Shown in pieces: positions 22,936 through 48,832 of a stretch of 64,000 nucleotides of DNA (position 1 is its first letter; each line of letters opens with the position of its first letter). The position numbers and the translations under genes are program-made. The notes beneath the pieces are model-generated. The model searched no databases and was not told where the DNA came from. It saw only the letters and a list, made by a program, of their open reading frames with translations. Origin of the DNA: Nitrospira sp. CR1.2 (lineage in GTDB: Bacteria; Nitrospirota; Nitrospiria; Nitrospirales; Nitrospiraceae); the NCBI GenBank assembly GCA_014055495.1, contig WIAG01000010.1:1-64000 (forward strand), read 5' to 3'.

Positions 22936-23799
22936 TCATTCAAATACCAGCACCTGACAAGGCGCGCGGTGCAGCACCGCATGGGAGACGCTCCCCAAGA
23001 CGAACCGGGTGATGCCTTGCCTCGCATGTGATCCCACCAGAATCAGATCGACCCGCAGCCGTTCCGCCTCATGAAGAATCATGGTCAGAGGCACACCAAG
23101 CAGGCTTGTCGAACGAGTCGTATATCCGAGCGCGCGTAACTTCGCTGCCACATCCTCGATGAAGTCCCGGGCATGACCAAGGGCCTGTGCTTCCAGTTGT
23201 TCCGCGACCGTATCGTCCACAGGCCAGGGCGGGCGGGTCGGCGGGAGCACGGTGAGCAGGTTCACGTTGACTGGCTCGTGAAAGGGTTGTTTGGCGAGAA
23301 ACCGCACTGCCGCTTCGGCGTCCGAGATCCCTTGCAGCGGGAGCAGTACCTCTTTCAAGGCGCGCAGAGAACCCTGCAGGATGAGTTTCGCACAGGGAGC
23401 CATGCTCAGGACCCGGTGTGACACGCTTCCGAAGAATCGTTCCTTCACCGGTCCCAGGCCTCTCGCTCCCATGACAATCAGGTCAATGTGACGTGATTCT
23501 GCCGCGGACACGATATGTTCCGCCGGCGATCCGACCTCCAGAATTTTCGTCACCGGCCCGCTGTGGAGCGGGAGGAGTGACTGTACTCGCGTCAGCAGCT
23601 GCTCGCCGTCTTCCTTCATGCCGCGTTCCAACTGGGCATAGAGTTCCTGTGCGACCTCCGGCATCATCATAGGGTAGGCCGGTTTCGGCGCGTCCACGAC
23701 ATGCAGGAGCGTGAGGTCGTCGGCGCGGCGGAGATATTTGAGGGCGCGAACGCCCTCGTAGGAATGGTCCGATCCATCGACTGCCAGCAGGGTCTTCAT
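22936..23799 (-). CDS. Tandem universal stress protein
   Basis: 287 aa: two UspA domains in one chain. Each half has the nucleotide-binding signature G-x2-G-x9-G-(S/T): MGARGLGPVKERFFGSVSH near 120-138 and VGSHARQGITRFVLGSVSH near the end. Each half opens with a beta strand ending in Asp (LLAVDGSD at the start). AAGGAG precedes the ATG at 23799, which fixes the start. It is the last gene of the minus-strand unit driven from 24627-24642. USPs act in survival of starvation, hypoxia or oxidative stress. Confidence 0.88.
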   Translation of the reverse strand: MKTLLAVDGSDHSYEGVRALKYLRRADDLTLLHVVDAPKPAYPMMMPEVAQELYAQLERGMKEDGEQLLTRVQSLLPLHSGPVTKILEVGSPAEHIVSAAESRHIDLIVMGARGLGPVKERFFGSVSHRVLSMAPCAKLILQGSLRALKEVLLPLQGISDAEAAVRFLAKQPFHEPVNVNLLTVLPPTRPPWPVDDTVAEQLEAQALGHARDFIEDVAAKLRALGYTTRSTSLLGVPLTMILHEAERLRVDLILVGSHARQGITRFVLGSVSHAVLHRAPCQVLVFE

Positions 23800-23810: not shown

Positions 23811-24467
23811 TTACGCTGATGATGCTGGACGAAGGTATTGCTGAAACCAATGCCCGGCTTCTCGGGCTACTTGTTCGAGCGTTCCCGGTTCTTCGAACAG
23901 ATGACTAGCACCCGGGATGATCGTGAGCTGTTTCGTGCAGGTGAGCTGCGCGAGCGCCTCCTGATTCATGTCGATGACGGGGCCGTCATCCCCGCCGACC
24001 AGCAGCAACGTGGGTGCGCTGACTTGTCTGAGGTATGGACCCGCCAGGTCCGGTCGCCCGCCACGTGACACCACGGCGCCCACGGCTTGGGGTCTCCGCG
24101 CCGCTGCCTGTAACGCTGCCGCGGCTCCCGTGCTCGCCCCGAAATATCCCGCCCTCAGCCCACTGGTCGAACGATGCGTGGCTAACCAGGTCTGGGCGAG
24201 CAGCAGGCGGTTCGCCAGCAGATCGATATTGAACACTTTTCGTCGGTCGTCCGACTCGTCGGGCGTGAGCAGATCCAGCAACAGGGTGGCAAAGCCACCG
24301 GTTTCCAGGACTCGGGCTACGTATTGATTGCGCGGGCTGAAACGGCCGCTTCCGCTACCGTGCGCAAAAGCCACGACCCCTGTCGTCTGGTCGGGAATTC
24401 TCAGAATGCCATCGAGGCTGACCCCGTCGCCGGTGATCGTGATCTGATACACGCTGTCCTGGTGCAT
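23811..24467 (-). CDS. Alpha/beta hydrolase, dienelactone hydrolase-like
   Basis: 218 aa. The nucleophile elbow GASTG has Ser at residue 112, the acid is probably D160 or D161 (LLVGGDDGP) and the His is H189 (GASHLFEE). An AHGSGSG oxyanion loop is at 35-41. The fold and size match the DLH family often found beside universal stress proteins. It starts 37 bp after the 31-aa ORF and ends 11 bp before the USP start, so the three form one unit. Substrate unknown. Confidence 0.82.
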   Translation of the reverse strand: MHQDSVYQITITGDGVSLDGILRIPDQTTGVVAFAHGSGSGRFSPRNQYVARVLETGGFATLLLDLLTPDESDDRRKVFNIDLLANRLLLAQTWLATHRSTSGLRAGYFGASTGAAAALQAAARRPQAVGAVVSRGGRPDLAGPYLRQVSAPTLLLVGGDDGPVIDMNQEALAQLTCTKQLTIIPGASHLFEEPGTLEQVAREAGHWFQQYLRPASSA

Positions 24468-24504: not shown

Positions 24505-24600
24505 TCAATGACAGTCCGTCGGGCAGAAAAAAATCAGATAGACCGCGACTGCGGCGCCGATCAAAACCGCTCCCAGCAACAGCCACTGTGTTCGCGACAT
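24505..24600 (-). CDS. 31-aa membrane peptide at the head of the minus-strand stress unit
   Basis: The sequence starts MSRTQWLLLG, continues as one hydrophobic helix and ends FFCPTDCH. AGAGGAT lies 7 bp before the ATG. A sigma-54 type promoter at 24627-24642 would put the transcript start about 15 bp upstream, so this is the first ORF of the message. One transmembrane helix with a C-terminal CxxxC pair suggests an inner-membrane peptide with a metal or redox site, but no family is recognised. Confidence 0.6.
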   Translation of the reverse strand: MSRTQWLLLGAVLIGAAVAVYLIFFCPTDCH

Positions 24601-24626
24601 GGTGTCATCCTCTGACCAGCTGTCTG

Positions 24627-24642
24627 AGCAAGACAAATGCCA
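24627..24642 (-). promoter_or_regulatory. Sigma-54 type promoter (minus strand)
   Basis: Read on the minus strand the site is TGGCATTTGTCTTGCT, which has the strict GG-N10-GC spacing of -24/-12 promoters and matches TGGCAC-N5-TTGC with one change. It differs at only two positions from the plus-strand site at 24911-24926. It would drive the 31-aa peptide, hydrolase and USP genes. Confidence 0.65.
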
Positions 24643-24779
24643 TCACAGGCCTGCGTCGGGAATCCGATGCTTCTGTCAGCATAAGGGCAGGCGGCCGTGA
24701 CTGTCGTCGATTCAGCGGAACAGGCAACGTCCCTGAGCCTGTCCCATCCGGCAGCAACATTCAGAACTCTGTGGCGTTG

Positions 24780-24809
24780 TGCTACAGCGTGCAAATGTCC
24801 GCTGTAGCA
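24780..24809. promoter_or_regulatory. Long dyad between divergent sigma-54 promoters, candidate enhancer site
   Basis: TGCTACAGCG (24780-24789) and CGCTGTAGCA (24800-24809) are perfect inverse complements around 10 bp, and weaker symmetry continues outward for several bases. The centre is about 160 bp from the minus-strand promoter and about 123 bp from the plus-strand one, the usual distance for an NtrC-family activator site. The activator is not encoded in this window. Confidence 0.6.
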
Positions 24810-24910
24810 GGACACCACCGGCAGACATCAGACGGGGACGGGAATCGGAGCGTCACCCATGAAACGCAAGCATTCTCGAAGGATTCCCCCCAGCGTCCGC
24901 GCTCCAGCAA

Positions 24911-24926
24911 TGGCATTGGCCTTGCT
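24911..24926 (+). promoter_or_regulatory. Sigma-54 type promoter (plus strand)
   Basis: TGGCATTGGCCTTGCT has GG and GC separated by exactly 10 bp and matches the -24/-12 consensus with one change in the first box. Transcription would begin near 24938, in front of GGAGGTGTA and the ATG at 24961. It heads the USP, cupredoxin, tandem USP and DUF2934 genes. Confidence 0.65.
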
Positions 24927-24960: not shown

Positions 24961-25461
24961 ATGGCCGATCGGCTTTTCACAAAAATTCTGGTCCCCGTGG
25001 ATTTCTCCCCCTGTTCCGAGGAAGCCTTCCGGATTGCCCTGGCGTTTGCCAAGTCGTATCAAGCAGAGGTGTTGCTGTTGCACGTCGTCGATACGAAGAG
25101 TCTCGATGCCCTGAATCGACTCGGATTAGCCCCGGCCTCGGAGGCGGCCAAGCAGAAGAAGCAACTGCACCATGTTGCCCGCCTGAATGCCAGGCAATTG
25201 CTGGCCTGGGACGACACGAAGGGTGTGGCGGTCAGGCGGTTGCTGGCCGATGGTGCTCCGTTCGAAGAAATTGCCAGGACGGCGCGGGTGGAAGGGGTGG
25301 ATCTGGTCGTCATGGGCAGTTACGGGGGGGCGCTGGGGGGAGTCGACAAGATTTTTTTCGTCAGCACTGCGGAGAAAGTGGTTCGGACGGCCGGATGTCC
25401 GGTGCTCACGGTGCCGATGCCGATCAAACGGGGTAAGGTGCGGGTGGCGAAAAGCTCGTAG
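24961..25461 (+). CDS. Universal stress protein (single domain)
   Basis: 166 aa from the ATG at 24961, which follows GGAGGTGTA; the frame is open further upstream but would run through the sigma-54 promoter. It begins with the usual strand FTKILVPVDFSPCSEEA. The nucleotide-binding loop is altered: MGSYGGALGGVDKIFFVSTAEKVV has the spacing but a Gly-rich, atypical first half. It is the first gene of the plus-strand stress operon. Confidence 0.87.
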   Translation: MADRLFTKILVPVDFSPCSEEAFRIALAFAKSYQAEVLLLHVVDTKSLDALNRLGLAPASEAAKQKKQLHHVARLNARQLLAWDDTKGVAVRRLLADGAPFEEIARTARVEGVDLVVMGSYGGALGGVDKIFFVSTAEKVVRTAGCPVLTVPMPIKRGKVRVAKSS

Positions 25462-25491: not shown

Positions 25492-25920
25492 ATGGGTGCG
25501 ATGTGGGGTAGAACGGTGCGGAGTGCGCAACGGATCCTGTTGGCGGCCGGGTTTGTGCTTGCGCTCTGTTCGCAGGGGGGTGCCCAGGCGGAGCAACGGA
25601 TCGAAGTGAGTATCAAGAATTTTGCGTTCGTGACCAAACAGGTCCCGCTCCGTTTGGGGGTGCCGACGGTGATCGCTATCACGAATGAAGATGAGGAGCG
25701 GCACGATTTCGGGTCCAGCATGTTTGACGGCATTCCGACACGTGTGACGTCGGGCGGGGTCGTTTCCTACGGGAAGGGTATCAGCGGGGTGTTCCTGGAT
25801 GCCAAAAAGGAGGCGGTGATCCGTTTTAACATGGAACGCCCCGGTCGCCATGAATTCCGCTGTTCGATTCATCAGCACATGAAGGGCGAACTGCTCCTCC
25901 TGAATGTGGAGGCGGTCTAA
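25492..25920 (+). CDS. Exported cupredoxin-like copper protein
   Basis: 142 aa. It has a signal peptide of about 33 residues ending near GGAQA, then a beta-sandwich. Candidate type 1 copper ligands are H71 (ERHDF), C124, H127 or H129 and M130 in CSIHQHMKG. AAGGAGG precedes the ATG. It sits between two universal stress protein genes, 3 bp before the second. An electron carrier or copper-binding role in the periplasm is likely. The ligand assignment is from the motif only. Confidence 0.75.
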   Translation: MGAMWGRTVRSAQRILLAAGFVLALCSQGGAQAEQRIEVSIKNFAFVTKQVPLRLGVPTVIAITNEDEERHDFGSSMFDGIPTRVTSGGVVSYGKGISGVFLDAKKEAVIRFNMERPGRHEFRCSIHQHMKGELLLLNVEAV

Positions 25921-25923
25921 CCC

Positions 25924-26865
25924 ATGACGGCCTTGATCAAGCGAGTCCTGTTCGCGACGGATTTTTCGGCTTGTGCCGACCGTGCCCTCGGTTATGCCCT
26001 GGCCTTGGCGAGGGTCTGGAAGGCGGAACTCACGGTGATGACCGTGCTCGAACTGTATCCGGGAATGGATCCGGACTATACCGTCAACAAGATGTACCTG
26101 GATCATTTGCGGGACGAAGCAAAACGCCAGCTGGCCTCTCTGGAGACCAGGGTCAAGGCGGCTGGTCACTCGATCACGACCCGCATCGAAACCGGTATCC
26201 CGAGCCAATGCGTGCAAGCCGTAGCGGAGGAGATTGGTGCCGACCTGCTGGTGGTCGGGACGCATGGGCGAACCGGGCTCGATCACGTGCTCGTGGGCAG
26301 CACGGCGGAGCGGGTGGTGCGCATCGCGCCTTGCCCGGTGCTCGCGGTGAAGGCCGACAAGGACGCGGCCCAGGCCGCTTCGGTTCCGACGATCAAGCGG
26401 ATCGTGGTTCCGATCGATCTCTCGACCTGTTCGCTGGATGCGCTGGAGTATGCCGTGCAGTTTGCGAGGCCGCTTGGGGCGTCCATTACGATTCTCCACG
26501 CCATGGAACCGGTCGCATACGGGTTGGATTTCAGTCTGACACACGCGAAGGAATGGAAGGAGCAGCGCGCCTATCTGGAAAAGCGGCTGACGGTGCTCAC
26601 CGCCTGTCTGACCGCCCTTGGCATTCAGACCGACCATGCGCTGAAACCGGGGTTGCCGGCCGACTCGATCACGTCGTACGTGACCGGGCAGGGGTACGAC
26701 CTGATGATTATGGGCACACACGGGAGGCGCGGTCTCTCCCATGTCCTGGTCGGGAGTATTGCCGGCGCGATGTTACGGCATGCGCCCTGTCCGGTCCTTA
26801 CCGTTCGCCGGCTCAAGGTCGGCCCGGAGTATCAACGTGTCGTTCCGCTGGGAGAGTCGTCATGA
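25924..26865 (+). CDS. Tandem universal stress protein
   Basis: 313 aa, two complete UspA domains. The ATP-binding signatures are VGTHGRTGLDHVLVGSTAE near 106-124 and MGTHGRRGLSHVLVGSIAG near 262-280. Both halves start with a strand ending in Asp (RVLFATDFS, RIVVPIDLS). The intact signatures suggest nucleotide binding, unlike the single-domain USP upstream. It is 3 bp from the cupredoxin gene, so co-translation is likely. Confidence 0.9.
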   Translation: MTALIKRVLFATDFSACADRALGYALALARVWKAELTVMTVLELYPGMDPDYTVNKMYLDHLRDEAKRQLASLETRVKAAGHSITTRIETGIPSQCVQAVAEEIGADLLVVGTHGRTGLDHVLVGSTAERVVRIAPCPVLAVKADKDAAQAASVPTIKRIVVPIDLSTCSLDALEYAVQFARPLGASITILHAMEPVAYGLDFSLTHAKEWKEQRAYLEKRLTVLTACLTALGIQTDHALKPGLPADSITSYVTGQGYDLMIMGTHGRRGLSHVLVGSIAGAMLRHAPCPVLTVRRLKVGPEYQRVVPLGESS

Positions 26866-26892: not shown

Positions 26893-27117
26893 ATGAAACC
26901 CAATGTGAAGAAACGGTCAGCGGTGAAATCGAAGCCTGCAGCTGCGGCCCGGCCCGTCGGACCACCGATCGAGCTGCCAGACGGCATGTGGGAGCGGATT
27001 TCGCAAAAAGCCTACGAACTCTGGAAGGAGCGGGGCTACCGCGAAGGCTACGCCCTACAGGATTGGCTGGATGCGGAGGCGGCCGTCATGGAGGAAATTC
27101 ATGAAGCTCGCGAATGA
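26893..27117 (+). CDS. DUF2934-type small protein
   Basis: 74 aa. A basic, Lys/Pro-rich N-terminus (residues 1-25) is followed by the DUF2934 core: MWERISQKAYELWKERG, then DWLDAEAAV. AAAGGAG lies 8 bp upstream of the ATG. Its 3' end overlaps the next gene by 17 bp. The molecular function is not known. Confidence 0.75.
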   Translation: MKPNVKKRSAVKSKPAAAARPVGPPIELPDGMWERISQKAYELWKERGYREGYALQDWLDAEAAVMEEIHEARE

Positions 27118-28471
27118 GCGGGTTGCCGCGCGTTCGGTTCCGATCGTCAAGGAATTGGATGGTCTGTTGGCGCGGCTGGACCGCCTCTCCATGGCGCCGG
27201 GGTTCGAGCCGCAGCGCCGACTCGCTTTCATGCGCGCCTTGCAGGTCTATGCAGAGCTGGGGACTCAAACGCCCTTGTCGCCGTTACCGGAAGAGGTCGA
27301 GTTGGCCGATCTGTTGTTGTTCGCAGATTTTTATCCTGAAGATGGCCAATTGACGCTGATCGAGCAGCTGCGCGACGTCATCACCGAACATATCCCCGAC
27401 GAAGAGCGCGTCTGGCTCGACCCGCTCAAACATTCCTATATGGATCTGGTTGAGGTGCTGCCGAGTCAATCCGGGACCCCGCGGCGTCCATTGCGATCCA
27501 TCGGCAACGGGCGAGTCTATGAGATACCGGCCGAGAGCCTGGATCGCACCATCGAGTCGGGGCAGGTGCTGCTGACCCGCCTGATTCGCGAGCCCGGGGA
27601 TCCGGAAAGCCCTCTGGCGGTCCTGGCTGGCCCGCTCCTCCTGTTGTCGGCCCAGGATGCGCGGACGCTGTATGAGCAGACTGCGGACGAGCGCCGGGAG
27701 ATGGAGGTCGTCGGCGGCTCTTTCGAACTCGGGGACTGGCCGGAATTCGCGAAGCGGTTCGGCCACATGCTGCTGAGAAATTTTGCCCGGATGCGTTTCG
27801 CGGCGTTGGTCGAGGCGGTGAGCGAGATTCGCTATCGGACCCCGGATGGGCTGCCGCATCTCTATGTTATCGCGCTGTACGAACATCATGAATTCACCTT
27901 CATCGCCGGGGGAATGGTCGACCTGGAAGGGTGGGCGGAGGACGCGCCCCTGCCAGCGACGGAAACGACCGGTCCCAAGAAGCTTCGTCGGTTTGTTTCA
28001 CGCGCGAAGGGCGACGTCTCGGCAGCGGCGACTCAGGCACGGGCGACGGTCACGGCCACCGAGCTCTATGTAGAGTGCGACTCACGTGAGCGGTTGGACG
28101 GCATCAAACACAGTCTGGCGGCCACCTTCGGATTTTCGCTGCACTTCCGGGGAGAAATCGCCCAACCTCCGGTCCGCCAGGTGACGAAGGAGGAGTTGTC
28201 GAACGAAGAGCCGCTGACCGTGGTGGTGAGTCGCGAGGAGGACCGGGCGCTGCTGAACGGCTTCTTAGAAACGGTGTATCTCGAATGGGCGGATCGTGAA
28301 TCGCCGGTGCTCGGTGGTGAGACGCCTCGGCATGTCGCCAAGACGCCGGCTGGGCGAGCCAGGGTCGCTGAGCTGATCGATGAGATGGAACGGTGCGATA
28401 TCGGGGTGTTGCGCAACGGGGTGGCGGCGTTTGACTACAGCAAGCTGCGAGCGCACGTGGGACTTTGTTAG
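27101..28471 (+). CDS. Uncharacterised 456-aa cytoplasmic protein
   Basis: No family recognised. The ATG at 27101 follows GGAGGA with 5-6 bp spacing and overlaps the DUF2934 gene. The protein has no signal or membrane segment. The first 120 residues are Leu-rich helices, 190-300 is a mixed alpha/beta part and 320-380 a second one. Two hydrophobic acidic patches (LPEEVELADLLLFADFYPEDGQ, YVECDSRERLDG) recur in helix-strand style. It ends the sigma-54 type stress operon and is followed by the intergenic repeat before fdsG. Confidence 0.6.
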   Translation: MKLANERVAARSVPIVKELDGLLARLDRLSMAPGFEPQRRLAFMRALQVYAELGTQTPLSPLPEEVELADLLLFADFYPEDGQLTLIEQLRDVITEHIPDEERVWLDPLKHSYMDLVEVLPSQSGTPRRPLRSIGNGRVYEIPAESLDRTIESGQVLLTRLIREPGDPESPLAVLAGPLLLLSAQDARTLYEQTADERREMEVVGGSFELGDWPEFAKRFGHMLLRNFARMRFAALVEAVSEIRYRTPDGLPHLYVIALYEHHEFTFIAGGMVDLEGWAEDAPLPATETTGPKKLRRFVSRAKGDVSAAATQARATVTATELYVECDSRERLDGIKHSLAATFGFSLHFRGEIAQPPVRQVTKEELSNEEPLTVVVSREEDRALLNGFLETVYLEWADRESPVLGGETPRHVAKTPAGRARVAELIDEMERCDIGVLRNGVAAFDYSKLRAHVGLC

Positions 28472-28478
28472 TGCGAGC

Positions 28479-28552
28479 CGTGAAGCGTATGTCGTGAAGC
28501 GTGAAGCGCTCGGGTAGTTGGCGAGATACGAACGACGAGATACGAGATACGG
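28479..28552. repeat. GTGAAACG / CGAACGACGAGA intergenic repeat, copy before fdsG
   Basis: GTGAAGCG units (three, tandem) are followed after 16 bp by GCGAGATACGAACGACGAGA and a further GATACGAGATACG. It ends 8 bp before the fdsG ATG and occupies the place where a ribosome site would be. Confidence 0.55.
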
Positions 28553-28559
28553 TTTCTCA

Positions 28560-29009
28560 ATGCATGAACAGGTGAAAAACATCCTGAACCAGGTGCGGGG
28601 CGAACCGCCTAACATTTTGCAATCCCTCCTCGCCCTGCAGGGAGAGCTTGGACATGTGTCGGCCGACATGGTGCCGGTCATCGCGAAAAGTCTTGGTGTC
28701 ACCACTGCTGAGGTGGCAGGAGTTCTGTCGTATTACCCGGATCTGCGCCCCTCGGCACCCGGGCGACACGTGATTCGGGTTTGTATGGGGGAGTCCTGCT
28801 ACGCCAACGGCTGCGGGCGGGTGCTGCGCGAATTGCAGGAACGTTTACGGGCCGATATCCATGAGACGATGCCGGGAGGACGGTTCACGCTCGATACGAT
28901 GTCCTGTGCGGGGAATTGCGCGGTGTCCCCCACAGTCATCATCGACGATGATCTATACGGTCGCGTCCTGCCGTCGCAGTTGGACGGCATGTTGGAGCGG
29001 TACAGGTAG
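28560..29009 (+). CDS. fdsG: NAD-dependent formate dehydrogenase gamma subunit (NuoE-like)
   Basis: 149 aa from the ATG at 28560. It is a thioredoxin-fold [2Fe-2S] protein with Cys ligands in CMGESC (C-x4-C) and CAGNC (C-x3-C). It passes electrons between the FMN and iron-sulfur chain of the FdsB subunit. It heads fdsG-fdsB-fdsA, the usual gene order of soluble FDH. No Shine-Dalgarno is visible because the intergenic repeat abuts the start. Upstream in-frame TTG at 28518 lies within the repeat and is unlikely. Confidence 0.88.
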   Translation: MHEQVKNILNQVRGEPPNILQSLLALQGELGHVSADMVPVIAKSLGVTTAEVAGVLSYYPDLRPSAPGRHVIRVCMGESCYANGCGRVLRELQERLRADIHETMPGGRFTLDTMSCAGNCAVSPTVIIDDDLYGRVLPSQLDGMLERYR

Positions 29010-29100
29010 TCGAGGTCGCCGGGCGTACGGCCGGTGCGGGGCTTCAGGTCCGCAGGCAGGGTTCATCGTTTCCCATTGTCCGGATAATCTGCTGAGAACC

Positions 29101-30591
29101 ATGGTCACAAGGCTCTACCTTTCCAACGATACCTCAGCCCGCGCTGCCGGTGCCGCTGCGCTGGCCGAGGCCTGGTCCGATCGTGCCGATGTCCAGCTGA
29201 TCCGGACGTCGTCGCGTGGGGCCTTCTACCTTGAACCGATGGTGGAGCGTGACGGTCCGGACGGAAGGATCGCCTGGTTCAATGTCTCTCCTCAGGACTT
29301 ACCCGCCATTCTGTCCGGTACGGGTGGAACAGCCGTGCACACGATCCCCTTCCTTGCCCAGCAGGTGAGATATACGTTTGCCAACTTCGGTGAGACTGAA
29401 CCCCTGTCCCTGGATGAATACCAGGCTCGCGGTGGATTGTCCGGGTTGGAAGCGGCGTTTCGCCTGACGCCCGATGCCATTATTGAGGAGCTTCGGGTGT
29501 CGCAGTTGCGCGGGCGAGGCGGCGCGGCATTTCCGGTCTGGAACAAGTGGAAGGTCGCTCAGCAGGCGAAGGGAGCGCAGAAATATGTGGTGGCCAACTC
29601 GGACGAAGGTGATGCCGGAACCTACTGCGACCGGATGATTCTGGAAGGTGATTCGTTCCGTCTGCTGGAAGGGATGTTGATCTGCGCCCGCGCCATCGGG
29701 GCTGGCCGGGGCTACGTGTATTGCCGACAAGAATATCCTGCCGCGTCGGCGACGTTGCGCGCCGCCATTCACAAGGCCGATGAGGCGGAGTTGCTGGAAT
29801 TGAACGGGGAACCGTTTCCCATCGAAGTGATCGAGGGCGCGGGTTCTTACGTGTGCGGAGAAGAGACGGCGCTGCTCGAATCGCTTGAAGGGAAGCGAGG
29901 GGTGGTTCGCGCGAGGCCGCCCTATCCCGCCCAATCCGGGTTGTACGGTTGTCCTACGATCGTCAGCAACGTGCTGACCTTCGCGACGATCCCACAGATT
30001 CTGTCACGGGGCGGATCCTGGCATGCCTCTCTGGGAACCGAACAATCGCGCGGGACCATTGTGTTGCAGCTGGGCGGACGTGTGAAACATCCGGGTCTGG
30101 TAGAGGTACCGTTCGGCCTGAGTCTCCACCAGGTGTTGGAGCAGTTCGGTGGGGGGATGGCACCAGGGTCACGGTTCAAGGCCGTGCAAGTCGGCGGGCC
30201 ACTGGGCAGTCTCTTTCCGACGACCGGACTCGAGTTGCCGATTTGTTACGATGCGTTTGCCAAGGCCGGCGCGGTGCTGGGACACGGCGGCATCGTGGTC
30301 TACGACCATGAGACCGATATGGTGGATCTGGCGCGGCATTTTATGGCCTTCACCGCGGATGAGTCTTGCGGTAAATGCACACCGTGCCGCATTGGCTCGG
30401 TGCGCGGACGCGAGATTCTTGAACGAATCCAGGCGGGCAGCGGCACGATGGATGACCTCCGGCTGCTGGACGATCTTGGCGAAACCATGAAACTTGCCAG
30501 TCTCTGTGCATTGGGCGGACGAGCGCCGTATCCGGTGCTCACGGCCATCGAACATTTTCCTGCCGAGTTCCGATCCAAGCTGAGGGCGTAA
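29101..30591 (+). CDS. fdsB: NAD-dependent formate dehydrogenase beta subunit (NuoF-like)
   Basis: 496 aa from the ATG at 29101; the frame is open upstream into fdsG but without homology. An N-terminal region (1-100) of the FdsB type precedes the NuoF core. RGRGGAAFPVWNKW at 137-150 binds FMN and VVANSDEGDAGT near 163-174 binds NADH. A CGKCTPC stretch near 420 plus a later Cys (SLCALGG) hold the [4Fe-4S] N3-type cluster. It reduces NAD with electrons from formate. Confidence 0.9.
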   Translation: MVTRLYLSNDTSARAAGAAALAEAWSDRADVQLIRTSSRGAFYLEPMVERDGPDGRIAWFNVSPQDLPAILSGTGGTAVHTIPFLAQQVRYTFANFGETEPLSLDEYQARGGLSGLEAAFRLTPDAIIEELRVSQLRGRGGAAFPVWNKWKVAQQAKGAQKYVVANSDEGDAGTYCDRMILEGDSFRLLEGMLICARAIGAGRGYVYCRQEYPAASATLRAAIHKADEAELLELNGEPFPIEVIEGAGSYVCGEETALLESLEGKRGVVRARPPYPAQSGLYGCPTIVSNVLTFATIPQILSRGGSWHASLGTEQSRGTIVLQLGGRVKHPGLVEVPFGLSLHQVLEQFGGGMAPGSRFKAVQVGGPLGSLFPTTGLELPICYDAFAKAGAVLGHGGIVVYDHETDMVDLARHFMAFTADESCGKCTPCRIGSVRGREILERIQAGSGTMDDLRLLDDLGETMKLASLCALGGRAPYPVLTAIEHFPAEFRSKLRA

Positions 30592-30596
30592 ATCGT

Positions 30597-30665
30597 CAGG
30601 CGTCAAACGGGACATGTGAAACGTGAAACGTAGGGCGGACCACGAGAGACGAACGACGAGAGGCG
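30597..30665. repeat. GTGAAACG / CGAACGACGAGA intergenic repeat, copy before fdsA
   Basis: ATGTGAAACGTGAAACGTAG is followed by CACGAGAGACGAACGACGAG. It fills the spacer between fdsB and fdsA and ends about 10 bp before the GTG start. Confidence 0.55.
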
Positions 30666-30675
30666 GAGCCCCCAA

Positions 30676-33399
30676 GTGAAGCTGGAAATAAACGGACGAT
30701 CGGTGGACGCGTTGCCGGGAGATACGATTTACGTTGCTGCAAAGAAGGCGGGTATCGTCATTCCGGCACTCTGCACCTCGGACCATCTGGCGCCCTTCGG
30801 ATCCTGCCGTCTCTGTCTGTGCGAGGTCGATGGCCAACAAGGTACTCCTGCCTCCTGCACCACGCCGGTGCGCGACGGCATGGTCGTTCATACCGAGAGC
30901 GAACGAGTGCGACGTCTCCGGAAACACCTCGTCGAGCTGTATCTGTCGGAACAACCGCCGGGAGATCGGGTGCCGGAGCCGTTGCATCGGCTGGCGCATT
31001 CGCTGGACCTCCGGCACATCCGGTATCCGCAGCCCGCCACCAGAATCGACACCGTCGATCGATCGAATCCGTTTTTCGTCTTCGACAATACCGTCTGTAT
31101 TTCCTGCGCCCGCTGCGTCCGGGCCTGCGATGACATTCAAGGCACGCATGCGCTGACCATGCTCCACCGGGGATTTGCGAGCAGGCCGGCGGCGGGTGGA
31201 TCTGCATTGATGGGTGAGTCGGCCGGATTTGCCTCGTCGAACTGTGTGTCCTGTGGGGCCTGCGTGAAGGAATGTCCGACGGGGGCCTTGATTGAGAAGA
31301 CGGTGATGGATGAGGGTGTGCCGGGACATTCTGTCCGTACTACCTGCGCCTATTGCGGGGTGGGCTGCACCTTTGAGGCTGGTGTACGGGACGATCGAGT
31401 GGTTCGAATGGTGCCGGCGGATGACGGCCCTTCGAATCAGGGCCATGCCTGCATGAAAGGGCGATTCGGCTGGACTTACAACTATGCCCCTGACCGGCTG
31501 CGCACGCCTCTTTTACGACAGGGGCGGGACTGGGTCGAAATATCCTGGTCCGCGGCCCTCGATCGCATTGCCGAGGAGTGGACCCGCATCAAAGACACCC
31601 ACGGTCCGGACGCGCTCGCCACGATTTCCTCCAGCCGCGGCACGAACGAAGAGAATTATCTGTTCGGCAAGTTCATGCGTTGCGTGATGGGCAGCAACCA
31701 CATCGATAACTGTGCACGGGTCTGTCACAGCGCGACCGTGACCGGGATGATGGAAACGCTCGGCGCCTCGGCGGCGACCAACTCCATCCAGGACCTGGAT
31801 CTGGCGAAGTTGATTCTGGTGGCGGGCGCCAATCCCACCGAATCGCATCCGGTGGTGGGCGCGCGCATCAAACGGGCCGTGCGCCGCGGCGTGCCGTTGA
31901 TCGTCATCGATCCCCGCCGAACGGAATTGGCACGCCTGGCGGATCTCCATCTGCAATTGCATCCGGGGACCAACGTGGCTCTGTTGAACGGCATGGGCCA
32001 TGTCATCGCCAAGGAGCAGCTGACCGATGCGGCGTTCGTGAGAAACCGGACGCAAGGATTCGACGAGTGGCTGGCTCTGGTGGCTGGTTGTACACCTGAG
32101 GCGACGTCGACTGTGACCGGCGTACCGGTACCTCTCATCATCGAAGCCGCGCGGCTCTATGCGAAGAGCGGGGGAGCGATGGCCGTGCATGGGCTGGGCA
32201 TGACGGAACATCGGTGGGGCAGCCACGGCGTGATGGCCCTTGTGAATCTGGCGCTGGCCACGGGCAACATCGGGAAACCCGGCACCGGGATCAATCCGTT
32301 GCGTGGCCAGAACAATGTGCAGGGGGCGTCGGATGTCGGCTGCCTGCCGACCTTCTTCGCCGGCTATCAGCCTCTCACCGATTCGACGTTGGCCGCGGCA
32401 CACCTTGCCGTCACCGGGCGGCCGTTGCCGACGGCGCGCGGCATGAAAACGCCCGATATGTGGGACGCGGCGCTGGCGGGCAGGCTCAAAACACTTTGGA
32501 TCATCGGGTATGACGTGGCGCAGACCGATCCGAATCTCAAAAAAGTACATGCAGCGCTGAAGAGTCTTGATTTCCTGATCGTCCAGGATCTGTTTCTCAG
32601 CGAGACGGCCAAGCTGGCGCATCTCGTCATTCCCGGCGCGTCGTTCCTCGAAAAGGACGGCACGTTTACGAATCTGGAGCGTCGCATCCAGCGTATTAGA
32701 AAAGCCGTGGAGCCGCCGAATGGAGTGCTGCCGGACTGGCAGGTGGTCTGCGAAGTGTCCGCGCGAATGGGATACCCGATGCAGTATTCCCATCCGTCGG
32801 CGATCATGGATGAGATTGCGCAACTGGCGCCGCTGTTTGCCGGCGTCACGTACGATCGGCTCGATCGCCCGGAAGGATTGCAATGGCCCGTGCCCTCGAA
32901 AGACCATCCAGGTACCTCCTTGATGCACGAACAGTCGTTTCCCAAAGGGAAGGCGCAGTTTGTCCCGGTGGAGTATCTGCCGCCGGGAGAGCGCCCGAAC
33001 GACACCTACCCGCTGGTGCTGATCACCGGGAGAATCCTGCAGCATTACAACTGCGGTGCGCAGACCAGGCGAACCGACATCATGCAGGTGGTCGATACCG
33101 ATGTGTTGGAAATTCATGCCTGCGACGCGTCTAGGTTGGATCTCCGTGACGGCGACCTGGTTCGGCTGATCAGCGCGCGCGGGGAGGCGCGGTTGCCTGT
33201 GGTGGTGAGCGACCGTGTTCAGCCGGGCGAGCTCTTTACGAGTTTTCACTTCCCCGACACGGATCTGAACGTGCTGCTGTCGTCCAGCGCCGATGAAAGC
33301 TCCAAGTGCCCCGAGTACAAAGTGTCAACCGTACGGCTTGAGAAAGTCACACAAACTGCCGTGCCGACTCCCCCCATGCAGGTGATGTTGATCACGTGA
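30676..33399 (+). CDS. fdsA: NAD-dependent formate dehydrogenase alpha subunit (molybdopterin/tungstopterin)
   Basis: 907 aa, GTG start with GGAG 8 bp upstream. It oxidises formate to CO2 at a bis-MGD site. The N-terminal [2Fe-2S] ligands are C33, C44, C47 and C61. Two ferredoxin-type [4Fe-4S] sites are at C141/144/147/151 and C190/193/196/200. The catalytic domain has C224, C227, C231 and C259 for its [4Fe-4S], and the metal ligand is C350 (RVCHSATV), a Cys and not selenocysteine. The His-Cys3 cluster motif expected near residues 92-108 in FdsA/NuoG is missing: the stretch reads SEQPPGDRVPEPLHR. The C-terminal dinucleotide-binding domain is complete. Confidence 0.93.
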   Translation: MKLEINGRSVDALPGDTIYVAAKKAGIVIPALCTSDHLAPFGSCRLCLCEVDGQQGTPASCTTPVRDGMVVHTESERVRRLRKHLVELYLSEQPPGDRVPEPLHRLAHSLDLRHIRYPQPATRIDTVDRSNPFFVFDNTVCISCARCVRACDDIQGTHALTMLHRGFASRPAAGGSALMGESAGFASSNCVSCGACVKECPTGALIEKTVMDEGVPGHSVRTTCAYCGVGCTFEAGVRDDRVVRMVPADDGPSNQGHACMKGRFGWTYNYAPDRLRTPLLRQGRDWVEISWSAALDRIAEEWTRIKDTHGPDALATISSSRGTNEENYLFGKFMRCVMGSNHIDNCARVCHSATVTGMMETLGASAATNSIQDLDLAKLILVAGANPTESHPVVGARIKRAVRRGVPLIVIDPRRTELARLADLHLQLHPGTNVALLNGMGHVIAKEQLTDAAFVRNRTQGFDEWLALVAGCTPEATSTVTGVPVPLIIEAARLYAKSGGAMAVHGLGMTEHRWGSHGVMALVNLALATGNIGKPGTGINPLRGQNNVQGASDVGCLPTFFAGYQPLTDSTLAAAHLAVTGRPLPTARGMKTPDMWDAALAGRLKTLWIIGYDVAQTDPNLKKVHAALKSLDFLIVQDLFLSETAKLAHLVIPGASFLEKDGTFTNLERRIQRIRKAVEPPNGVLPDWQVVCEVSARMGYPMQYSHPSAIMDEIAQLAPLFAGVTYDRLDRPEGLQWPVPSKDHPGTSLMHEQSFPKGKAQFVPVEYLPPGERPNDTYPLVLITGRILQHYNCGAQTRRTDIMQVVDTDVLEIHACDASRLDLRDGDLVRLISARGEARLPVVVSDRVQPGELFTSFHFPDTDLNVLLSSSADESSKCPEYKVSTVRLEKVTQTAVPTPPMQVMLIT

Positions 33400-47456: not shown

Positions 47457-47666
47457 TCAGACCTTATAGGCGAGTCCTTTGACGGCAATGCTGCCTTCTG
47501 CTACAGGTGACGCCCGGAACTGTAGCGCCTCTCCACGGGTGAGGCGTGCGCGGCGGCAGTGCGCGCGACAAGTCCAACATATTCGACCTGCCCCCTCGAT
47601 ACATGCCCGGGCACTACCCTTGCTCTTTTCAATGAGAAGACCTCTTAGAGGCTGAGTCTCTGTCAC
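47457..47666 (-). CDS. Possible small Cys-containing protein
   Basis: 69 aa, GTG start, weak ribosome site. It contains CIEGAGRICWTCRAHC and a Val-rich end. It lies alone between hpnR and the FBPase gene on the opposite strand. The codon use is less GC-biased than its neighbours, so it could be spurious. Confidence 0.25.
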   Translation of the reverse strand: MTETQPLRGLLIEKSKGSARACIEGAGRICWTCRAHCRRARLTRGEALQFRASPVAEGSIAVKGLAYKV

Positions 47667-47707: not shown

Positions 47708-48832
47708 ATGGCGACTGAACAGAAGCCAGGAGACAGCGGTAAGCTCACGCTGAGTGTCATCAAAGCGGACATCGGTGGGTTTGTCGGCCATTCGGCGATC
47801 CACCCTGCATTATTGGATTGCGCGAACGAGAGGCTGGCCACAGCCAAGAACGGCGGGTTGCTGATCGATGCTCATGTGTCGGCCTGCGGGGATGATTTGC
47901 AGCTGATCATGACGCATCGCCAAGGCGTGGACCACGAACCGATCCATCGTTTAGCCTGGGAGACGTTTTTAGCGGGCACGGAGGTCGCGAAGGACCTGCA
48001 TCTCTACGGTGCCGGGCAGGATCTGCTGGCCGACGCGTTCAGCGGGAATGTGCGGGGGCAGGGCCCAGGCGTGGCCGAGATGGAGTTTGTGGAGCGGAAA
48101 TCCGACCCGGTGCTGATTTTCATGGCGGATAAAACGTCCGCCGGGGCTTGGAATCTCCCGCTGTATAAGATGTTTGCGGACCCGTTCACGACTGCCGGTC
48201 TGGTGATCGCGCCGACGCTGCATCAGGGGTTCCGCTTCGAGGTCCACGACATTTACAAACACAAAAAGATCACGTTCGATTGTCCGGAAGAATTGTATGA
48301 TCTGTTGGTGTTTATCGGGTCGCCCGGCAAGTATACGGTCAAAGCTGTGTATTCCAGGGCGGACGGCACCATTGCCGCCTCCACGTCCACCGAGCGGCTT
48401 TCCTTGATCGCGGGCAAATATGTCGGCAAGGATGATCCGGTGATGATCGTGCGTGCACAGCAAAACTTCCCGGCGGTGGGAGAGGTCCTGGACCCGTTCC
48501 GGTATCCCTGGATCATTGAGGGGTGGATGCGGGGCTCGCACTATGGCCCGCTCATGCCGGTCTCGGTGAAACAGGCGACACCGACCCGGTTCGACGGCCC
48601 TCCGCGTGTGGCCTGTCTAGGGTTTCAACTCGCCAACGGTCGATTGATCGGGCCGAGAGACATGTTCGACGATCCGTCCTATGACGAAGCGCGGAGGGAT
48701 GCGAATCGGATCGCCGATGTGTTGCGTCTCCATGGCCCCTTCGAGCCGCATCGATTGCCGTTGGAGGATATGGAGTATACGACCATGCCGCAGATTATGA
48801 AGAAACTCGAAGGACGCTGGGGGCCACTGTAA
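47708..48832 (+). CDS. Fructose-1,6-bisphosphate aldolase/phosphatase (class V FBPase)
   Basis: 374 aa. This bifunctional gluconeogenic enzyme condenses triose phosphates and dephosphorylates the product; it is widespread in archaea and deep-branching autotrophs. The metal-binding start SVIKADIGGF with GHSA (residues 16-30), CGDDLQ near 60-65, and FADPFTTAGLV at 157-166 are diagnostic. The aldolase pair Y209 and K212 (KYTVK) matches the Tyr/Lys of the archaeal enzymes. The gene has no FBPase neighbours; it suits an organism fixing CO2 by the reductive TCA cycle. Confidence 0.88.
   Translation: MATEQKPGDSGKLTLSVIKADIGGFVGHSAIHPALLDCANERLATAKNGGLLIDAHVSACGDDLQLIMTHRQGVDHEPIHRLAWETFLAGTEVAKDLHLYGAGQDLLADAFSGNVRGQGPGVAEMEFVERKSDPVLIFMADKTSAGAWNLPLYKMFADPFTTAGLVIAPTLHQGFRFEVHDIYKHKKITFDCPEELYDLLVFIGSPGKYTVKAVYSRADGTIAASTSTERLSLIAGKYVGKDDPVMIVRAQQNFPAVGEVLDPFRYPWIIEGWMRGSHYGPLMPVSVKQATPTRFDGPPRVACLGFQLANGRLIGPRDMFDDPSYDEARRDANRIADVLRLHGPFEPHRLPLEDMEYTTMPQIMKKLEGRWGPL

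Follow-up and report, generated by a model that had tools for sequence, protein, structure and literature searches.

Can a single stretch of DNA between two sigma-54 promoters that face apart switch on stress-protein genes on both sides, and if so, is this a peculiarity of one genome or part of a larger regulon in nitrite-oxidising Nitrospira? We addressed this question in a window of 64,000 nucleotides (positions 1 to 64,000 of contig WIAG01000010.1, assembly GCA_014055495.1) from Nitrospira sp. CR1.2, where a sequence-only reading had proposed two divergent sigma-54 promoters that share one enhancer, a perfect 10+10 bp dyad, within a cluster of universal stress protein (USP) genes. Briefly, the observation holds and is larger than first described, as the conserved element probably activates both flanking operons, recurs across the Nitrospiraceae and lies beside one conserved regulator gene.

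Divergent promoters and a bipartite element

Two 16-bp sites, TGGCATTTGTCTTGCT (24627-24642, minus strand) and TGGCATTGGCCTTGCT (24911-24926, plus strand), are present, face apart, match the sigma-54 consensus (TGGCAY-N5-TTGCW, with GG and GC ten bases apart) at 11 of 11 positions and are the only two full-consensus sites in the window. Their predicted transcript starts lie near 24615 and 24938, although starts were not mapped, rpoN itself was not looked up and dependence on sigma-54 is inferred. Between the two sites, the dyad TGCTACAGCG-N10-CGCTGTAGCA (24780-24809) is perfect and unique in the 4.06-Mb genome, and searches with the exact 10-bp half-site and the exact dyad recovered the dyad only at this locus, while a search of plasmid DNA returned no match.

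We then considered whether these features could have arisen by chance, i.e., generic GG-N10-GC matches and a hairpin in an intergenic region. In favor of this, when one mismatch was allowed, the five matches to the promoter pattern in the window were not above the number in shuffled sequences (3.6 expected). However, loss of the promoter sites or of the dyad in close relatives had been named in advance as one outcome that would overturn the proposal, and this was not what we found. The USP1 protein retrieved 18 related Nitrospira loci, including N. defluvii FP929003, in which the plus-strand site is conserved in all 18 (one, locus L048, has G at the first base) and the minus-strand site in 17, the contig of the 18th (locus L057) beginning about 430 bases before USP1. 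Among the records compared, one titled Candidatus Parvibacillus calidus carries a Nitrospira-type locus with the same gene order, so its title or binning looks wrong, and one titled Nitrosospira likewise looks like Nitrospira. Promoters and element are islands of conservation in otherwise divergent intergenic DNA, and, together with the family-wide association described below, these comparisons refute the chance explanation.

The anatomy of the element needs correction, however, because an alignment of 19 loci showed that the 10+10 bp dyad is not itself the conserved unit. Only GCTACAG-N14-CTGTAGC of the dyad is conserved and the inner CG...CG pairs are particular to this genome, while longer outer arms are conserved, giving CTGTGGCGTTCCGCTACAG-N14-CTGTAGCAGGACACCMCC with a variable spacer. 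This 52-bp bipartite element (24769-24820) is best read as two adjacent 19-bp NtrC-type dimer sites, CTGTRGC-N5-GCYACAG, whose centers are 33 bp apart and of which the dyad is the inner half. Site 1 (24769-24787, plus strand), CTGTGGC-GTTGT-GCTACAG, has no mismatch to this pattern, whereas site 2 (24802-24820, plus strand), CTGTAGC-AGGAC-ACCACCG, has two, with a strong inner and a weaker outer half. The distances from the element center to the promoter GG are 117 bp (plus) and 154 bp (minus), so that the layout is that expected of an NtrC-type enhancer, namely inverted-repeat dimer sites, usually two, roughly 80-200 bp upstream of a sigma-54 promoter. A role of the dyad at the RNA level was set aside, since the dyad lies upstream of both outward promoters and its spacer is not conserved, though no RNA folding was run.

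The gene content proposed for both sides was correct. Leftward, the promoter precedes a 31-aa membrane peptide (24505-24600, minus), a dienelactone-hydrolase/alpha-beta hydrolase (23811-24467, minus; PF01738 and PF00561, with gene order conserved) and a tandem USP (22936-23799, minus; two PF00582 stretches). The peptide is conserved in the 17 loci that hold it and is under purifying selection, with 219 synonymous against 91 non-synonymous codon differences. Rightward lie USP1 (24961-25461, plus; PF00582, 84-93% identical in most of the related loci), a cupredoxin-like protein (25492-25920, plus; PF13473), a second tandem USP (25924-26865, plus; two PF00582 stretches), a DUF2934 protein (26893-27117, plus; PF11154) and, last in the USP operon, an unknown protein of uncertain start (27113-28471, plus) with only a sub-threshold Xre_MbcA_ParS_C match at its C-terminus. 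After a 47-bp gap follow formate-dehydrogenase-like genes (28518-33399, plus; 2Fe-2S thioredoxin-like, NuoF-like and molybdopterin subunit), which are possibly reached by read-through, though co-transcription was not shown. Homologues lie in the same places in most of the related loci.

Recurrence of the element across Nitrospiraceae

To ask whether the element marks a regulon, we built a sequence-only profile (R1) from the element alone, so that it carries no promoter information. In this genome the USP locus was the best match (E 4e-13, though the window copy is itself in the model) and the next-best hits outside the locus were both on another contig, C98, while in N. defluvii they were upstream of a fructose-1,6-bisphosphatase gene (E 2.5e-4) and upstream of an activator gene. 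Across the family, 125 of 147 genomes, in 20 of 22 genera, have a match; other families of Nitrospirota were not searched. Of 101 hits inspected, 83 have an outward sigma-54 site 40-260 bp away and 57 have one on both sides, against 6 and 0 of 239 control points upstream of other genes, with distances peaking at 120-140 bp, a typical enhancer distance. We acknowledge that these 101 hits are not independent, as many are the same orthologous locus in different species, but distinct target families are involved, i.e., chiefly USPs and cupredoxins, together with CBS-domain proteins, FtsH, TolC, hydrolases, hemerythrin-like proteins and MacA (some of these names come from sequence inspection rather than a profile search). 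In one locus (L186), two elements lie 1.85 kb apart on one contig, and one of them precedes an FtsH-like gene.

A second copy lies within the window itself, upstream of a fructose-1,6-bisphosphatase gene (47708-48832, plus; FBPase_3, PF01950, E 6e-183). Here the element (47488-47538, plus) is followed by a sigma-54-type promoter, GGGCACTACCCTTGCT (47609-47624, plus; 10 of 11 consensus positions), and both are conserved in N. defluvii and in genome G101, which have AGGCATTGCCTTTGCT at the corresponding place. Further, about 60 kb of contig C98 carry several elements near USP, cytochrome c, TolC, Kef-type antiporter and bactofilin-like genes, representing a second stress cluster. Of these, related but weaker elements precede a USP and a cytochrome c gene and are conserved in N. 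defluvii and UBC2, while the elements near TolC/Kef and at C98:33546 score well (24.0 and 35.9) but lack a full-consensus sigma-54 site. By contrast, a search with CTGTRGC-N5-GCYACAG alone at two mismatches gave fewer hits than its reversed control (39 against 93), so it was not used as genome-wide evidence and only its clustering on C98 was followed.

These data also bear on whether the element might instead serve a non-sigma-54 regulator, such as a repressor or architectural protein, with the sigma-54 sites used independently of it. This reading is compatible with the absence of binding data and with about 18 elements, largely of the FtsH and TolC types, that lack a clear sigma-54 site at the stricter threshold. 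However, we consider it very unlikely given the pairing of 83 of 101 copies with outward sigma-54 sites at a preferred distance and the position of the element, in Nitrospira, next to a sigma-54 activator gene.

A candidate NtrC-family activator

The sequence-only reading had also asked for an NtrC-family activator carrying the motif in its own promoter, and one such gene was found, though its element is a relative of TGCTACAGCG rather than an exact copy. This genome has 28 matches to the sigma-54 activator domain, and we examined the upstream regions of 24 sigma-54 activators with a matrix made only from the USP-locus copies. Only one had an upstream match (17.8, against a next best of 2.4), a receiver-AAA-HTH_8 response regulator on contig C66 (8986-10422; PF00072, PF00158, PF25601 and PF02954), i.e., with the receiver, sigma-54 AAA+ and Fis-type HTH domains of the NtrC family, encoded next to a multi-PAS histidine kinase. 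The element lies between this gene and a divergent HlyD/MacB-type operon with its own sigma-54 promoter. In all 24 Nitrospira genomes with enough upstream sequence the element is upstream of the regulator, at a nearly constant position (about 135 bp) and nearly always with the divergent macA sigma-54 promoter. The median score in these 24 genomes is 23.4, against a 99th percentile of 13.8 in 1500 control windows, a pool that includes true elements. The copy in this genome is a weaker match than in several relatives, and the weakest of the 24 (9.9) is within reach of chance on its own (1.7% of control windows). In other genera, 9 of 20 upstream regions of this regulator hold a dyad at one mismatch or fewer, against 16 of 400 control windows, and in seven loci the gene is preceded by a sigma-54-like site (mostly of the form TGGTCY), in most with dyads between it and the start codon, suggesting autoregulation.

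The regulator is 72-100% identical across the family, whereas paralogues are at or below 52%, and its HTH is 93% conserved. Genomes without the element more often lack it (8 of 22 against 13 of 125; Fisher p 0.004), although this co-occurrence is confounded by incomplete assemblies and by relatedness. The loop expected to contact sigma-54 reads GSFTDA or GAFTDA in the orthologues shown in place of the canonical GAFTGA, an observation that leaves undecided whether this contact is made in the usual way.

Alternatively, the same enhancer unit might be served by another bEBP, most plausibly a PAS-AAA-HTH protein that is encoded in the same C66 cluster and keeps GAFTGA. It lies behind a response regulator whose promoter region has a sigma-54 site, TGGCACATGGTTTGCG, and a weak dyad, which we regard as tentative. 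That dyad scores poorly with the USP-locus matrix (-8.7 in this genome and -3.1 in N. defluvii), whereas the element beside the receiver-type regulator is conserved in 24 Nitrospira genomes and scores far above those of 23 other activators, so we consider this alternative unlikely, though we cannot rule it out. Elsewhere in the sequences examined, a 486-aa bEBP gene (contig C150, 1045-2683) has a full-consensus sigma-54 site, TGGCATTCCTCTTGCT, just downstream of it.

A putative two-way control unit and its regulon

Taken together, the interpretation as divergent sigma-54 promoters sharing one enhancer is supported. In our preferred reading, to which we give a probability of about 0.8, an NtrC-family activator, most likely the C66 receiver-type regulator, would bind the two 19-bp sites, assemble its AAA+ ring there and, by DNA looping, activate sigma-54 RNA polymerase at both flanking promoters, leftward to the peptide, hydrolase and tandem USP, and rightward to USP1 through the unknown protein and perhaps the formate-dehydrogenase genes. 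The unit would belong to a regulon spread over Nitrospiraceae (USPs, cupredoxin, FtsH, TolC, MacAB, fructose-1,6-bisphosphatase and probably cytochrome c). The sequence comparisons establish both promoter motifs, the element, their conservation, the family-wide pairing of the element with sigma-54 sites and its place beside that one activator gene, whereas binding (not assayed here), looping, the role of sigma-54, the identity of the activator and the signal are inferred, without expression data. Low oxygen or redox stress is the most likely signal, as four UspA proteins are among those most increased at about 5.6 uM O2 in N. marina, beside operons that also rise (PMC8115632), though this rests on the proteome of another species. 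A broader possibility, which we hold only tentatively, is that a single conserved NtrC-family two-component system acts as the family-wide oxygen/redox stress regulator of Nitrospiraceae, driving USP, cupredoxin, protease, efflux and carbon-metabolism genes through one bipartite enhancer that serves divergent promoter pairs.

Parts of this arrangement have precedents. At the enteric glnAp2 promoter, NtrC, a receiver-AAA-HTH_8 regulator, binds two tandem inverted-repeat dimer sites about three helical turns apart upstream of a sigma-54 promoter. The conserved motif here is CTGTRGC-N5-GCYACAG rather than the NtrC motif TGCACC-N5-GGTGCA, the targets are USP and redox genes, two divergent promoters are served and the activator is not shown to be NtrC. 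Enhancers shared between divergent sigma-54 operons occur at E. coli hyc/hyp (FhlA) and at the Caulobacter ftr sites, with a different motif, activator and targets, whereas here the same architecture recurs in many genera and loci. DosR-type hypoxia regulons also place several USPs under a response regulator, plausibly in low oxygen, but DosR is a NarL-family regulator that does not act through sigma-54, while the promoters here are sigma-54 type and the candidate regulator is NtrC-type. Sigma-54 promoters upstream of UspA-domain genes have been predicted in Planctomycetia (PMC12316311), another phylum, where we found no enhancer element or activator named and the text does not mention Nitrospira.

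Nitrospira are the most widespread nitrite oxidisers, and we found no description of this regulon in the literature searched. Our analysis provides a concrete motif, a candidate two-component activator and a target list, and may explain why USPs are among the proteins most increased when N. marina is short of oxygen (PMC8115632). Further, it offers a natural series of shared enhancers between divergent sigma-54 promoters, conserved over many genera, for studying how one enhancer serves two promoters.
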